Assembly (NCBI RefSeq): GCF_002197645.1
Contig: NZ_CP021874.1
Location: 62,001 to 126,000 of the forward strand
Source of the DNA: Enterococcus wangshanyuanii
GTDB lineage: Bacteria > Bacillota > Bacilli > Lactobacillales > Enterococcaceae
Reading direction: 5' to 3'
DNA length: 64,000 nt
Numbering within the stretch: the stretch's first letter is position 1; each line of letters starts with the position of its first letter. The notes below the pieces were generated by a model. That model was not told the origin of the DNA. It worked only from the letters and a program-made list of their open reading frames with translations, and made no database searches. Below are positions 4,559 through 53,626 of this stretch, in pieces. The position numbers and the translations under genes are program-made.

Positions 4559-5398
4559 TCAGCGGATCTTCAAAGAATTTTCAGGTTTCAGCTGGTAAAT
4601 TTTTGAAGGGCGTCCAATTCCTACAGGACGCTCGCCAATTTCCTCAAAATGATGAAGCATCGCTTTTTTAAAGTTTGAGTGATCGATCGTTTTATAATCA
4701 ACTCCGGAAAATTTGGCGAATACTTTACGTGCTTCAGTAATTGTAAAATCTTTTCCCAGCACTTGTAAAACTTGCGGATCGTGTTCCATTTTATTTGAGA
4801 CACGATTAAATGCTTTCAAAATAATGTCACTATGGTCAAAAGCTAGTGTATCTTTGCCATTTGAAGCACCTGTTTTCAGATCTAGAATAATTTCTACACT
4901 GCCATTCGTCAATGAAAGAAGATCTGCACTACGCTCCATTGTAAACCAGCGTACTTCTTTTGCATCATCCCCTGCAATCAATGGTTCTTCTCCAATAAAT
5001 GCTAAATAGCTGACAGTGACGACCCAACCGCGTGGATCACGATCGGGTCTGCTGAAACTATGGAGCTGCTCAATATTTTCTTTAGAGATGACAACTCCTG
5101 TTTCCTCAGTCGTTTCACGCAGTACACTTTCACCTGTAGACTCATTTCGATTAACAAATCCTCCAGGCAGTGCCCATGAATTTCGGTAAGGGTGGCCTTT
5201 TCTTTTTATCAGCAATATTTTTAATTGATCTTCTTCTTTGTTATAACACATCAAAACAATATCTACAGTCAGAGAAGGCTTTTCATATTCAGGAAGTTCT
5301 TGTTGATGATACCAATTTAAAAATTCAGCCTCACTAGCGTGTTGCTCATAGTATTGTTTTTCTTCTTCCCTAGAATTAAATTGCGCCAAATCACTCAT
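4559..5398 (-). CDS. Nudix hydrolase with C-terminal winged helix (NrtR-like regulator)
   Basis: A 279-residue two-domain protein. Residues ~40-175 are a Nudix domain with a complete Nudix box, GX5EX7REUXEEXGU (starts GGFVNRNE, ends RETTEETGV), so hydrolysis may be retained. Residues ~190-279 look like the winged-helix DNA-binding domain of the Nudix-related transcriptional regulators (NrtR), which sense ADP-ribose or related NAD metabolites and control NAD genes. The box is intact, while many NrtR regulators have degenerate ones, so an active ADP-ribose/sugar-nucleotide pyrophosphatase is also possible. A near-palindrome lies between its promoter and start codon, suggesting autoregulation. 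The downstream gene is a GNAT enzyme. Confidence 0.75.
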   Translation of the reverse strand: MSDLAQFNSREEEKQYYEQHASEAEFLNWYHQQELPEYEKPSLTVDIVLMCYNKEEDQLKILLIKRKGHPYRNSWALPGGFVNRNESTGESVLRETTEETGVVISKENIEQLHSFSRPDRDPRGWVVTVSYLAFIGEEPLIAGDDAKEVRWFTMERSADLLSLTNGSVEIILDLKTGASNGKDTLAFDHSDIILKAFNRVSNKMEHDPQVLQVLGKDFTITEARKVFAKFSGVDYKTIDHSNFKKAMLHHFEEIGERPVGIGRPSKIYQLKPENSLKIR

Positions 5399-12891: not shown

Positions 12892-14004
12892 ATGCAGATA
12901 CTGAAAAAAGAAGTGACTGAGTTTGAACTGTTTTATGATTTGATTTTTGCTTATGCTATTAGTAGAATTGCCTCTATTTTACTTGTCGGTACAGATCACC
13001 TGTTGTCTTTTAAAAGTATTGGAGAATTTTTGATGCTGACGCTTGTTTTCTGGACTATTTGGACGTACCAAACTGTTTTTGCAAATCGTTTTTCGATCAA
13101 AAATAAGCTTAGCGCTCTATTTCTATTTTTTGATATGTTTTGGGTCATTGTTTTAGCACAGTCGATCAATGTTGATTTCGAACGAACACATTTTACATTT
13201 GCTGGAGCAACTTCTATTTTATTTTTTAGCATTGCGTTACAATATTACCTGAAGATGAAAAGTACGGATAATGAAATTATTAGAAAATTGTGTATTCAAT
13301 TGGCTGCCGTTTTAGTCGTAAGTGGAGTGATCGGGTTCATTTCAATTCTTCCTTTTGGAAACTATTGGCTTCGTTTCTCTATCTATGTATGTTCAATTTT
13401 TATCACCGCTTTTTTTCCCATCGTGACGAAAAAAGCATTATTGGATTTTCCTACGAATTTTGAACACTTGACCGAGCGTTACAGTTTGTTTACCTTACTG
13501 TTGTTTGGTGAAGCTGTGATTGCTATTGCTAGTACGATTTTGTTTAATGACATTCAGCTGAGCAGTGTTTTGTTCTTTTTATTGATCGTTGTGATGTTTC
13601 TATTTTATAATACAATCTATAAATCAGGAATCGATCGGCAAAAAACAACGGCTGGTTTGGTCTTGATTCATTCTCATTATTTTGTCTTTGCCGGGTTGGA
13701 GTTGTCGATCGTTTTGTATGAAAGTTATGTAAAGAGTGAAATCGATCCGCTATTTTTTGTGCTCTGTTTAGCTGGCAGTCTAATCTGTTTTTTAGGGGGT
13801 ACGCTTGTTAATATGGTCATCTACACGAAAAAAGAATACAACTATCTCCCTTTTATCAGTAAAAATGTTCTTTATTTTGTTGGCTGGGTAGTGATTGGAT
13901 TGCTCCTACAAGATTATGTAGCTCCTTTCTTGTTTGTGAATATCATTTTCTTACTATTCTTCCTTTATAAAGTGAAGCAAGAGCTGAAAATTCAAGCTGA
14001 ATAA
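12892..14004 (+). CDS. Low temperature requirement protein A (LtrA) family membrane protein
   Basis: A 370-residue polytopic membrane protein with about ten hydrophobic helices. The N terminus (FELFYDLIFAYAISRIA) carries the E-x-F-x-D-L-x-F hallmark of the LtrA family, and FGEAVIAIAS at residues ~203-212 is another typical segment. The family was named from a Listeria cold-growth mutant; its molecular role is unknown. The ribosome binding site is poor (GTGGATGTG). It is a single gene that converges with the GIY-YIG gene at a 22-bp hairpin. Confidence 0.8.
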   Translation: MQILKKEVTEFELFYDLIFAYAISRIASILLVGTDHLLSFKSIGEFLMLTLVFWTIWTYQTVFANRFSIKNKLSALFLFFDMFWVIVLAQSINVDFERTHFTFAGATSILFFSIALQYYLKMKSTDNEIIRKLCIQLAAVLVVSGVIGFISILPFGNYWLRFSIYVCSIFITAFFPIVTKKALLDFPTNFEHLTERYSLFTLLLFGEAVIAIASTILFNDIQLSSVLFFLLIVVMFLFYNTIYKSGIDRQKTTAGLVLIHSHYFVFAGLELSIVLYESYVKSEIDPLFFVLCLAGSLICFLGGTLVNMVIYTKKEYNYLPFISKNVLYFVGWVVIGLLLQDYVAPFLFVNIIFLLFFLYKVKQELKIQAE

Positions 14005-41457: not shown

Positions 41458-41482
41458 ACATACAAGTTGTTTTTTCATTGGT

Positions 41483-41577
41483 TTTTATCAGGTTCCTGTT
41501 CTGATAAAAGTTAGTGAGAAGAGCTTCACTAACGTAACGACTCGCAGTGATTGACACCGAGGCGGTACGTTTTTTTT
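41483..41577 (+). ncRNA. Structured attenuator leader of trmL (resembles the 23S-methyl RNA motif)
   Basis: Three consecutive hairpins: P1 TTTTATCAG (41483-41491) with CTGATAAAA (41501-41509); P2 GTTAGTGA (41510-41517) with TCACTAAC (41526-41533); and P3, an imperfect terminator stem (41532-41544 with 41558-41570, inner GTG/CAC) followed by eight T. A terminator inside the leader means trmL expression requires readthrough. From memory, the '23S-methyl' RNA motif of Lactobacillales precedes genes annotated as rRNA methylases and ends in such a terminator; I could not check the alignment. Confidence 0.6.
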
Positions 41578-51060: not shown

Positions 51061-51110
51061 AAAAAGATGTGATTTCGATGGAGAAAATTGAAGTCATATC
51101 TTTTTTTTAT
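51061..51110 (+). terminator. Terminator after the FemAB gene
   Basis: AAAGATGTGATTTC pairs with GAAGTCATATCTTT (G-U pairs), followed by eight T. Confidence 0.7.
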
Positions 51111-51177
51111 TGGGTTTACCTTCTACTGGAAAAATGAGATAATCAAATGGGAAAAAGTGAGTTTTGGAGGGAATAAA

Positions 51178-52437
51178 ATGGAAGAAACGTTAGTTCAGAA
51201 TCAATGTTCAGCTTGTGGGGGAGCAATCAATGATCCATCATTTAAAAATTGTCCGCATTGCGGTACGACGCTGGATATGATTCAAAAAGAAATCGATGAG
51301 AAAAACAAAAATATCGAGCTGTGTGCAAACTGCGGCTCACCAGTGACTTTTAATATCGAGAAGCAACAATTTGCTTGTGATTTTTGTCACTCGACTTTTA
51401 CAACAAAAGCAGAGCAGGATTTTGATAATTTGACCTATGAAGCGGATGACTTGATTCCGTTTCAAGTGCCAGAAGGCTTAGCAAAAAAGAAATTTTATGA
51501 ATGGTTGATCGCAGGGAAAAACGTTCCGCTAGATATTCTTGGAAAAGCAACGAGCATCCAATTAGAACAAGTGTATATCCCTTATTTGGGAGCAAGTGTT
51601 TCATATGAAGGTTCTTGGAGTGCTGATATTGGCTATAATCGTAATGAAACCTATACAGAATACGTAACTAAAGAAGACAAAAACGGCAATAAATATACAG
51701 AGCCTGTGACTAAAACGCGAACAGTCATTGATTGGAATCATTCAAGCGATATTTTTACAGGAACGGCTTATAAAAGTTATCTGATCAACAATGAATTGAC
51801 AGGAGCAGTTGCGGCGTTTGCGGAAAAAGCTTCTGGTCTAGCAATCATAAATGAAGTGAAGCCCTTTGATGAGCATTATACAGCTGGAACTCGCCAATTG
51901 AAAATTTCGTCAGATAAGGTTTCCGAAGCATTACGTTCTGTTCGTGGATTTGCCCATGATGAAGCGCGAGTGAAGATGAAGAGTCTCCTACCTGGTGATA
52001 AGAATAAAAATGAAAAAATTACTAAATTTTCGTACACATTGATCTCAAAATATACGTATGTCCCATTTTGGAAAGTCACGTATAAATATGAAGGAATCGA
52101 TCATATGGTACTGATGACTGCCTCTAAAAAGGAAAAGATTGAAATTGACGGCAGTCGTCCTGTGAGTCAGGAAGATTCTTCAATAGAAAACAGGATGAAA
52201 CGTAATGGACGTTATGGTCTACTTGCAAGTTTGGTATTTTTCTTAATCTTTGCGTTTGAGCTTCTTCCTAAGACTGTGGAACCCGTATTATCGTTCCTTG
52301 TGGTGGGCGGTATCGGTGTTTGGATATTTTTTGCAATAAAAAGACACAGCTTCCTCGGTGCAAATAAGAAAAGTTTGAAAAACAATTTGCAGGATCATCC
52401 TGAATATATGAGTTTACTAAAACAATATTCAGAATAA
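51178..52437 (+). CDS. Zinc-ribbon membrane protein, unknown function
   Basis: A 419-residue protein with two N-terminal zinc ribbons (C10, C13, C25, C28 and C49, C52, C67, C70, the second like a TFIIB-type ribbon). A middle domain of ~280 residues with no recognised motif follows, then two transmembrane helices at residues ~340-380 and a short cytoplasmic tail. Such proteins are common in Firmicutes but uncharacterised. The start at 51178 follows TTTGGAGGG. Single gene with a terminator just after it. Confidence 0.78.
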   Translation: MEETLVQNQCSACGGAINDPSFKNCPHCGTTLDMIQKEIDEKNKNIELCANCGSPVTFNIEKQQFACDFCHSTFTTKAEQDFDNLTYEADDLIPFQVPEGLAKKKFYEWLIAGKNVPLDILGKATSIQLEQVYIPYLGASVSYEGSWSADIGYNRNETYTEYVTKEDKNGNKYTEPVTKTRTVIDWNHSSDIFTGTAYKSYLINNELTGAVAAFAEKASGLAIINEVKPFDEHYTAGTRQLKISSDKVSEALRSVRGFAHDEARVKMKSLLPGDKNKNEKITKFSYTLISKYTYVPFWKVTYKYEGIDHMVLMTASKKEKIEIDGSRPVSQEDSSIENRMKRNGRYGLLASLVFFLIFAFELLPKTVEPVLSFLVVGGIGVWIFFAIKRHSFLGANKKSLKNNLQDHPEYMSLLKQYSE

Positions 52438-52461
52438 GTTTTGCACTAGGGATTGAAAACT

Positions 52462-52492
52462 AGAATGACGAATCCTCGTTGTTCTGTTTTTT
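52462..52492 (+). terminator. Terminator after the zinc-ribbon gene
   Basis: AGAATGACGA (52462-52471) pairs with TCGTTGTTCT (52476-52485), with two G-U pairs and six T. Confidence 0.72.
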
Positions 52493-52521: not shown

Positions 52522-52679
52522 GGTGCGAACCCTAAGTGCACATGAAATCACTAATTGATTCGCACCATTTTTTTGATGGAAAATAGTGGAAAAACAGCTT
52601 TTTCTCATCGAATTCACATTTAATGGCAGGTAACTAAGGAAAATATGTCATTATCACTATAAAATGGTATGTTTTCACG
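52522..52679 (+). promoter_or_regulatory. Putative CRISPR leader with conserved hairpin
   Basis: GGTGCGAA (52522-52529) pairs with TTCGCACC (52559-52566), enclosing CCCTAAGTGCACATGAAA and followed by seven T. From memory, a GTGCGAACCC...CACATGAAA...TTCGCACC element stands upstream of type I-C arrays; a search is needed to confirm. The remaining 110 bases to the first repeat are AT-rich, with a TATAAA at 52658-52663. Confidence 0.5.
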
Positions 52680-52834
52680 GTCTCACTCTGTTTAGAGTGA
52701 GTGGATTGAAATACCACTTGATAAAAAATATTCAACGAACAAAAATGCGTCTCACTCTGTTTAGAGTGAGTGGGTTGAAATTTTTCAGTGACTGTCTCTG
52801 ATCGAGCATTTATGATGTCTCACTTTGTTTAGAG
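52680..52834 (+). CRISPR. Orphan CRISPR array, type I-C-like repeats (two full repeats plus a degenerate one)
   Basis: Two 33-base repeats at 52680-52712 and 52749-52781 differ by one base (GTGGATTG versus GTGGGTTG). Each has the palindrome CTCACTCT-GTTT-AGAGTGAG and ends ATTGAAAT or GTTGAAAT, the type I-C form. Spacers are 36 bases (52713-52748) and 35 bases (52782-52816). A third repeat starts at 52817, is degenerate after 18 bases and merges into a terminator hairpin. That marks the trailer end and a plus-strand orientation. No cas gene lies in the window, so the array is orphaned or served in trans. Confidence 0.9.
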
Positions 52835-52867
52835 GATAACTCAACCAGTTATCCTCTAAACTTTTTT
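52828..52867 (+). terminator. Terminator at the trailer end of the CRISPR array
   Basis: TTTAGAGGATAACT (52828-52841) pairs perfectly with AGTTATCCTCTAAA (52847-52860), followed by CTTTTTT. The first seven bases of the stem are also the remains of the last repeat. Confidence 0.85.
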
Positions 52868-53056: not shown

Positions 53057-53626
53057 GTGGGAATGATCAAAGAGGCTACAGCCGTCATTTTATGTGGGGG
53101 AAAGAGTACAAGAATGGGCTTTGATAAATCTTTGTTAAAAGTCAAGGGTGAGTTCGTCTTACTCAGAACAGTGAAGCAACTCCAAAAAATTTTTCCTAAA
53201 GTACTGCTTGTAGCGAATCAGAGAACAAAATTTCCAGCTGTTTTTTCTCAAGTGACGATCCTTGAAGATCATTACCATGAAAAAGGGCCTCTTGGTGGTT
53301 TAGCAACGGGACTGGAAGAGATAGAAACAGAATATCTATTTTTAGTTGCTTGTGACATCCCTAACTTGACCGTTGATTTGATTCGGATCATGAAAGAGCA
53401 TTTATCAACGTATCAAATTGTACTATGTCAGCAAAATGGTCGATTGGAACCCTTATTCGCTTTTTATCATCGTTCTTGTTTACCTGTTTTTCAACAGCAG
53501 CTTACATCAAAAAATTGGCGAATAGCAAAAGAATTCGATCGATTTTCAGTTAAGATCATTACATTAGACACGTCCACGACCATCAACAATGTGAACACAC
53601 CAAAAGAACTTGTCTTTTGGAATTAA
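53057..53626 (+). CDS. mobA: Molybdenum cofactor guanylyltransferase MobA
   Basis: A 189-residue enzyme adding GMP to molybdopterin to make the guanine dinucleotide cofactor that formate dehydrogenase needs. It has the nucleotidyltransferase motif LCGGKSTRMGFDKSLL (residues ~12-27), GPLGGLATGL (~74-83) and CDIPN (metal Asp). The start is GTG at 53057 with AAAGGAGG six bases upstream; an ATG six bases later is also possible. First gene of a seven-gene same-strand operon ending with moeA. Confidence 0.9.
   Translation: MGMIKEATAVILCGGKSTRMGFDKSLLKVKGEFVLLRTVKQLQKIFPKVLLVANQRTKFPAVFSQVTILEDHYHEKGPLGGLATGLEEIETEYLFLVACDIPNLTVDLIRIMKEHLSTYQIVLCQQNGRLEPLFAFYHRSCLPVFQQQLTSKNWRIAKEFDRFSVKIITLDTSTTINNVNTPKELVFWN

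Follow-up and report, generated by a model that had tools for sequence, protein, structure and literature searches.

The 64,000-nucleotide stretch of the Enterococcus wangshanyuanii genome analysed here (the window) carries a genuine type I-C CRISPR array between two genes. Very probably it is a remote array whose Cas proteins were once supplied in trans from an I-C cas operon elsewhere on the chromosome. Loss of that operon in this lineage would have left three leader-bearing arrays behind. An earlier note, made from the sequence of the window, had offered two explanations: either the array is the remnant of a lost I-C locus, or it is an orphan that Cas proteins from elsewhere serve. Both need correcting. 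Relatives with I-C systems have an array at this position and their single Csd1 and I-C-type Cas1 matches elsewhere, while in the genome itself (G000) Csd1/Cas8c and Cas1 have no match and the usual operon site is empty. Together these results point to a satellite array stranded by loss of a distant operon.

Structure of the array

The coordinates and identities of the features (Table 1) confirm the two 33-nt repeats, the spacers of 36 and 35 nt and the degenerate third repeat described in the earlier note, which was also right that the neighbours are housekeeping genes and that no cas genes lie nearby. The two full repeats are identical at 32 of 33 positions, and their palindrome folds as CTCACTCT-GTTT-AGAGTGAG. 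The leader is A+T-rich up to position 52679. At the other end GTTTAGAG is common to the degenerate repeat and the terminator, where it forms part of the first arm; the terminator (52827 to 52861 plus the T-run) folds with a z-score of -7.95. Terminal half-repeats are common among the arrays that were compared. A terminator-like hairpin is also found at 52461 to 52486, 3' of the upstream gene, which ends at 52437. An Rfam scan of the window gave nothing CRISPR-like; the only match above threshold was the 23S-methyl RNA motif RF01065 at 41472 to 41576 (88.2 bits).

Table 1. Positions of the array and its flanking genes in the window, and loci of relatives with a solitary repeat-like element
Feature	Position	Strand	Remarks
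Upstream gene, left synteny marker	51088..52437	+	no Pfam hit
Leader hairpin element, type I-C (45 nt)	52522..52566	+	same element upstream of other I-C arrays in the genus
Remaining leader, with TTTTTCTCAT, ATTCACATTT, and TTTTCACG abutting repeat 1	52567..52679	+	conserved blocks in leader alignment
Repeat 1, type I-C class, 33 nt	52680..52712	+	
Spacer 1, 36 nt	52713..52748	+	match to Rep_trans replication-initiator gene
Repeat 2, 33 nt	52749..52781	+	GGGTTGAAAT replaces GGATTGAAAT
Spacer 2, 35 nt	52782..52816	+	matches SRAP gene on own contig C3 and sites in three relatives
Degenerate terminal (third) repeat	52817..52834	+	17/18 over first 18 nt, divergent thereafter
Intrinsic terminator closing the array	52827..52867	+	15-bp perfect stem, 5-nt loop, T6
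mobA-like gene (NTP_transf_3), right synteny marker	53057..53626	+	
Solitary elements in loci L119, L120, L121, L122, L123, L125, L127, L128, L134 and L135	5' of cas3		

Type I-C identity of the repeat and leader

The window repeat is present, at up to three mismatches, in 15 of the 22 genomes of the genus (its own counted), and the reversed control pattern is found in none of the 22 at the same threshold, so the repeat is not a chance occurrence. A related repeat class with the stem CTAGCTC/GAGCTAG was found in 17 of 22 genomes at up to two mismatches. Two Enterococcus I-C repeats, DR10 and DR11, are listed in Table 2 of PMC10165109; their reverse complements supply one member each of the GTCTCACTC..GAGTGAG and GTCTAGCTC..GAGCTAG classes, and the exact window repeat is absent from that table. 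This distribution and the DR10/DR11 classes bear out the earlier assignment of the repeat to type I-C. The repeat classes were considered as markers of cas-adjacent as against remote arrays, and this was abandoned because the CTAGC class also occurs far from cas genes. In a genome of another family of the same order (G111), a long array (L065) has as its last listed repeat one identical to repeat 1 of the window, which suggests, from sequence identity, transfer of I-C between families.

The array has a palindromic repeat of the 32 to 33 nt class with a GTGGATTGAAAT end, and unique spacers of similar length with targets in mobile-type DNA. A 5'-TTC PAM accompanies the one good target of spacer 1 and five of five target places of spacer 2 in four genomes. 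Ahead of the first repeat lies a leader in common with cas-linked arrays. What would complete an I-C system, a cas8c/Csd1 gene and a cas1 gene in the same genome, gave zero matches each.

The upstream hairpin, taken in the earlier note for a possible I-C leader, proved to be just that. In 30 distinct array contexts from the genus, the present one included, the same element precedes the first repeat by 157 to 170 nt, and it lies at -192 in an array on a Paenibacillus plasmid (L004, about 2817 to 2861). The 35 contexts extracted are not a neutral sample, some loci having been fetched by leader similarity. Four were without a good leader hairpin: three interiors of longer arrays, and L023 of G007, a genome without Cas1 or Csd1, which has only a poor match. 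In the window the GGGG of the 3' arm is changed to AATT, and the predicted fold is -12.5 kcal/mol as against -24.2 kcal/mol for a hand-typed consensus-like sequence. Across the alignment 89% of cells pair, and 34 of 500 shuffles pair as often. The covariation score was reached by 59 of 500 shuffles, the pairs changed on both sides were matched by 111 of 500, and the number of such cells by 18 of 500. The element reads as a conserved sequence with a fold, in which covariation is no proof of selection on structure.

The same site in relatives

Eleven loci were compared at the site between the upstream gene and mobA. Repeats are present at this site in eight of them. Both flanking genes are on the stretch in four (G019, G010, G003 and G014), mobA alone in three (G005, G021 and G007), and the upstream gene alone in G008. 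No repeats were seen at the site in G001 and G015, viewed from the mobA side, or in E. plantarum, viewed from the upstream-gene side. The number of repeats at the site ranges from 1 to 18 across the relatives. The Csd1 matches of the site-bearing genomes, and the Cas1 matches where there are any, are always elsewhere and never at this site, which marks it, among the genomes seen, as a long-standing place for a satellite array and not for cas genes.

Absence of cas genes and the empty operon site

A profile search of the genome (4.16 Mb in five contigs, 100% complete) gave no match to Csd1/Cas8c or Cas1. The absence of cas genes rests on these two profiles and on the empty operon site. It concerns the one genome of the species that was searched, and other strains may keep the operon. 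Csd1 was found in 12 of the 22 genomes of the genus and in 22 of 105 in the family; Cas1 of any type was found in 15 of the 22.

The order of genes in the ten first-fetched loci is cas3-5-8c-7-4-1, read from ORF order and size, with Csd1 and Cas1 being the genes checked by profile within these operons. A PfpI-like gene is present upstream of cas on the fetched stretch in nine of the ten. In G000 the interval from the PfpI-like gene to a response-regulator/kinase pair is 1.3 kb; nothing in it resembles the cas proteins of G021 or G010, and it has no complete repeat. G014, G003 and G018 likewise show neither such cas similarity nor a complete repeat at this site, which spans a longer stretch in G014 and G003. 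Alignment to intact loci succeeds on both sides of the G000 site. Its left flank aligns with the G021 locus (L127) to about base 4596 and the alignment resumes at 13843, such that about 9.2 kb of the G021 locus correspond to about 0.33 kb in G000. In a different relative the Cas1 gene of the I-C operon lies in two overlapping pieces with a stop (G011:C12:3521-4458); adaptation may have been lost there although the operon remains.

Relic arrays and repeat totals

The search of the genome for further repeats, as advised in the earlier note, yielded two more relic arrays, and the window array is not the sole one. At G000:C1:239329-239505 (L138) a leader is followed by a 21-nt half repeat and zero spacers. 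At G000:C1:3706700-3706950 (L139) a leader precedes one repeat and one 33-nt spacer, and the array closes with a half repeat and then T7; no convincing target was found for this spacer among phages. The three leader-bearing arrays therefore hold two, one and zero spacers.

Repeat totals were obtained by counting copies near two patterns and summing both, so that slight overlap is possible and variants are undercounted on both sides. They range from 13 to 83 in the 12 genomes with Csd1. The totals without Csd1 are 3 in G000, 38 in G003, 3 in G007, 14 in G014, at least 4 in G018 and at least 8 in G020, which has variant repeats missed by both patterns; G002, G006, G016 and G017 have zero by the patterns. 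The difference, uncorrected for kinship, gives a Mann-Whitney p of 0.006 with the six repeat-bearing cas-less genomes and 0.0004 with the four zeros. Shrinkage is not uniform, as G003 has neither Csd1 nor Cas1 yet keeps its 38 repeats. Six of the seven Cas1-less genomes hold I-C-type repeats, the exception being G016.

Targets of the spacers

Spacer 1 has one good target, a 31/36 match with 5'-TTC in OR846589.1 (E = 2e-4). The mismatches are at positions 1, 7, 22, 25 and 34, and all five fall on third codon positions of a gene encoding a Rep_trans/Rol_Rep_N replication initiator. TcpC, an AAA_10 ATPase and an FtsK-like gene are encoded nearby (L148, 90000-116000). These conjugation-type genes indicate that OR846589.1 carries an element of integrative-conjugative type. 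The record is labelled Enterococcus phage Efs 1-1-1, and it may be host DNA with such an element rather than a phage. Spacer 1 was not found in the other genomes of the genus (22 searched, up to three mismatches), nor in viral_contigs as a pattern with wobble positions left free.

Spacer 2 matches at 35/35 in G011:C8 and G019:C5, at 34/35 at two places of the genome's own 206-kb contig C3, and at 32/35 in G010, each time with 5'-TTC. The other 99 of 103 family genomes searched have no match at up to three mismatches. The target gene, checked in G011 and G000, encodes a SRAP protein (PF02586). In C3 it lies near a ParA-type gene, and on this ground C3 is probably a plasmid. The region of C3 with par, SRAP and LXG genes (L104, L105) is present twice, 89 kb apart, and the second copy has split reading frames; this is possibly a duplication or an assembly artefact.

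The single mismatch to C3 is at position 12 of the spacer, a third codon position. In type I-E structures every sixth guide base is unpaired, and by analogy the mismatch may be tolerated. Matches of spacer 2 in Pseudomonas (the best listed, several to SOS response-associated peptidase) were set aside because they cover only 57 to 69% of the spacer at an E of 0.3, and its first 23 nt as a pattern had no match in viral_contigs. Neither spacer has a convincing target among the named plasmids. In the type II array CRISPR2, as described in PMC5491264, a degenerate terminal repeat can shield the last spacer from loss by repeat recombination, and such a last spacer can be inactive. Spacer 2 is terminal, and with its non-consensus handle and broken 3' repeat it might act weakly even if Cas proteins were supplied.

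How the array was probably stranded

In I-C systems the repeat is cleaved by a Cas5d-type protein, and Cascade and Cas3 act on TTC-flanked DNA. The window array would have worked in trans in this manner: a transcript driven from the leader would be cleaved in the repeats and would direct Cascade and Cas3 to flanked targets. New spacers are added by Cas4-Cas1-Cas2, according to PMC6519985. Once the operon was lost the arrays would have been unable to gain spacers, and recombination between repeats can delete those present; the arrays are now small. The window array keeps its leader and terminator, and any transcript would be inert without Cas5d, Cascade and Cas3. Loss of Cas would also have removed the barrier that spacer 2 set against the resident C3 element, and may have let it enter or stay.

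The earlier note chose the orphan CRISPR2 of E. faecalis as an analogue, and the analogy is sound. As described in PMC5491264, that array, like the window array, is cas-less and has few spacers; it sits at a conserved position on the chromosome, its terminal repeat is degenerate, and it is found in strains without a cas locus. It differs in CRISPR type, being II-A; in the present genome there are three arrays, and one spacer matches a resident element. CRISPR2 is served by CRISPR1-Cas9, and the window array could in the same way still have Cas proteins made from distant genes acting on it in trans. Such service is likely in relatives, where G010, G005, G021 and G019 have the array and a distant Csd1 gene. 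For the genome analysed here it is highly improbable, given the missing Csd1 and Cas1, the usual site without cas genes, and the maintenance of C3 despite its 34/35 match beside TTC. Scarcely likelier is that the array survives because it does something else, such as yielding a regulatory RNA or offering a place where a re-acquired cas operon could land; the leader and terminator largely survive, and repeats persist in G003 and in nearly all the Cas1-less genomes, but the leader hairpin is damaged, the terminal repeat is degenerate, and the two sister arrays are down to one and no spacers.

That the feature is not CRISPR at all, but an intergenic repeat, tandem or regulatory, that has been conserved, can practically be dismissed. 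There are only two full repeats, they occupy the same position in several species, and strong hairpins could regulate genes. Against this, the leader is the one found at cas-adjacent arrays, the number of repeats at the site varies, and both spacers match mobile-type genes beside TTC; the variable number and the protospacers in substance refute it. The findings that similar repeats occur in relatives, that their count is not fixed and that spacer 1 is in no other genome of the genus also answer the earlier note's own suggestions of what would count against CRISPR. A remote array stranded by the loss of its operon is the reading that we retain.

The I-C system of enterococci described in PMC10165109 (cas3-cas5-cas8c-cas7-cas4-cas1-cas2) has the same repeat class, a ATTGAAAT 3' end and TTC by its targets. 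The relatives share its gene order as far as the order and size of their ORFs show, and profiles confirm their Csd1 and Cas1, while the present genome differs from it in having arrays only and an empty operon site.

Candidate guard elements near cas3 in relatives

A solitary repeat-like sequence, with the GTGGATTGAAAT end or nearly so, was found 5' of cas3 in 10 of the 12 cas loci of the genus (Table 1), and none was found in the cas loci of G005 and G012. In eight of the ten elements the guide matches a site 113 to 610 nt 5' of cas3 beside TTC. Among 300 shuffled guides none did as well in six genomes, 10 did in G010 and 22 in G021. In G008 and G001 the guide matches beside CTC, which was admitted as a motif post hoc. 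Guides differ between genomes, and when seven representative guides and targets were permuted their own pairing was the single best of 5,040 (98 versus a mean of 55). Over the first 17 bases of the ten pairs the mismatches fall at position 6 in seven, 12 in three, 16 in three and 17 in five, with positions 9, 11 and 14 mismatched in one pair each; the search score ignored positions 6, 12 and 18, and that omission favours part of the pattern.

The elements of the relatives are crRNA-like, with a degenerate repeat near cas, and their guides match in part, beside a PAM, regions that are putative promoters as read by eye. In seven genomes the matched site lies just 5' of a hydrophobic ORF of 50 to 78 aa, in one of them, G013, overlapping the ORF start; three such ORFs were scanned and had no Pfam hit. 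In G010 and G021 the site has cas3 on one side and a divergent PemK gene (PF02452) on the other; this gene has a partner ORF without a Pfam hit, and the element could from this position act on either. No partner gene was identified at the matched site of G004.

Some cas-less genomes also have traces. In G014 both the element and the PemK pair are still present, but the PemK gene of the pair is interrupted by a stop at codon 26 and a second PemK paralogue is intact; no target was found for the guide. The scar in G000 (L130, about 5777; G000:C1:3235776) holds a fossil of the element, a repeat tail plus guide, whose first 11 guide bases are in common with G010, G021 and G014. No guide target and no PemK were found at the scar. 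A hydrophobic ORF comes next after the fossil. Cas-less G003 has a broken PemK-like gene, which was dropped as guard evidence because it more closely resembles a different PemK paralogue, one located further upstream in relatives, and no crRNA-like element was found in G003.

Ten I-C loci outside the genus were also scanned, with the motif relaxed to NTC and cas3 starts estimated. Comparable pairs were seen in G079 and G090 (0 of 200 shuffles), G095 (1) and G062 (5); the remaining six had none. The site in G079 lies about 19 nt before cas3, which suits cas autorepression (CreR) better than a toxin guard.

The elements are candidates for control of the CreTA/CrePA/CreR type. In the account given in PMC12737573, CreTA has an RNA toxin and belongs to type I-B, while CrePA has a protein toxin, typically with a KilA-N domain, that acts on FtsZ. 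The relatives resemble these systems in having a solitary degenerate repeat plus guide 5' of cas3, a partial match beside a PAM-like TTC near a putative promoter, and, in cas-less G014, a broken neighbouring PemK. They differ in being type I-C and in having as neighbours a hydrophobic ORF of roughly 50 to 78 aa or a PemK/MazF-type gene. We give about even odds to a model, built from these comparisons, in which the I-C Cascade of these enterococci protects itself by means of interchangeable toxins. A solitary crRNA-like RNA would direct Cascade to repress a small membrane peptide or a PemK/MazF-type toxin encoded beside cas3, loss of cas would free the toxin, and cas-less lineages, this one included, would have deleted or broken it; stranded arrays and the fossil would record that history. 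PMC12737573 also describes CreR as widespread in type I and states that loss of CRISPR does not itself trigger the CrePA toxin, both of which argue against such an addiction.

Implications

The guard-like module is a lead, and we make no claim that it is absent from print, open-licence PMC papers having been searched. In the relatives it bears on a question left open by the December 2025 review PMC12737573: whether types other than I-B also have CreTA-like guards, and whether such guards employ other toxins. The array by itself is one more orphan CRISPR, a common situation. The loss, its scar and a possible consequence are here readable in one genome, from the remote arrays, the empty site, a spacer against a resident plasmid-like contig and the crRNA-like fossil. 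The link of cas loss to plasmid carriage in enterococci thereby becomes directly testable.
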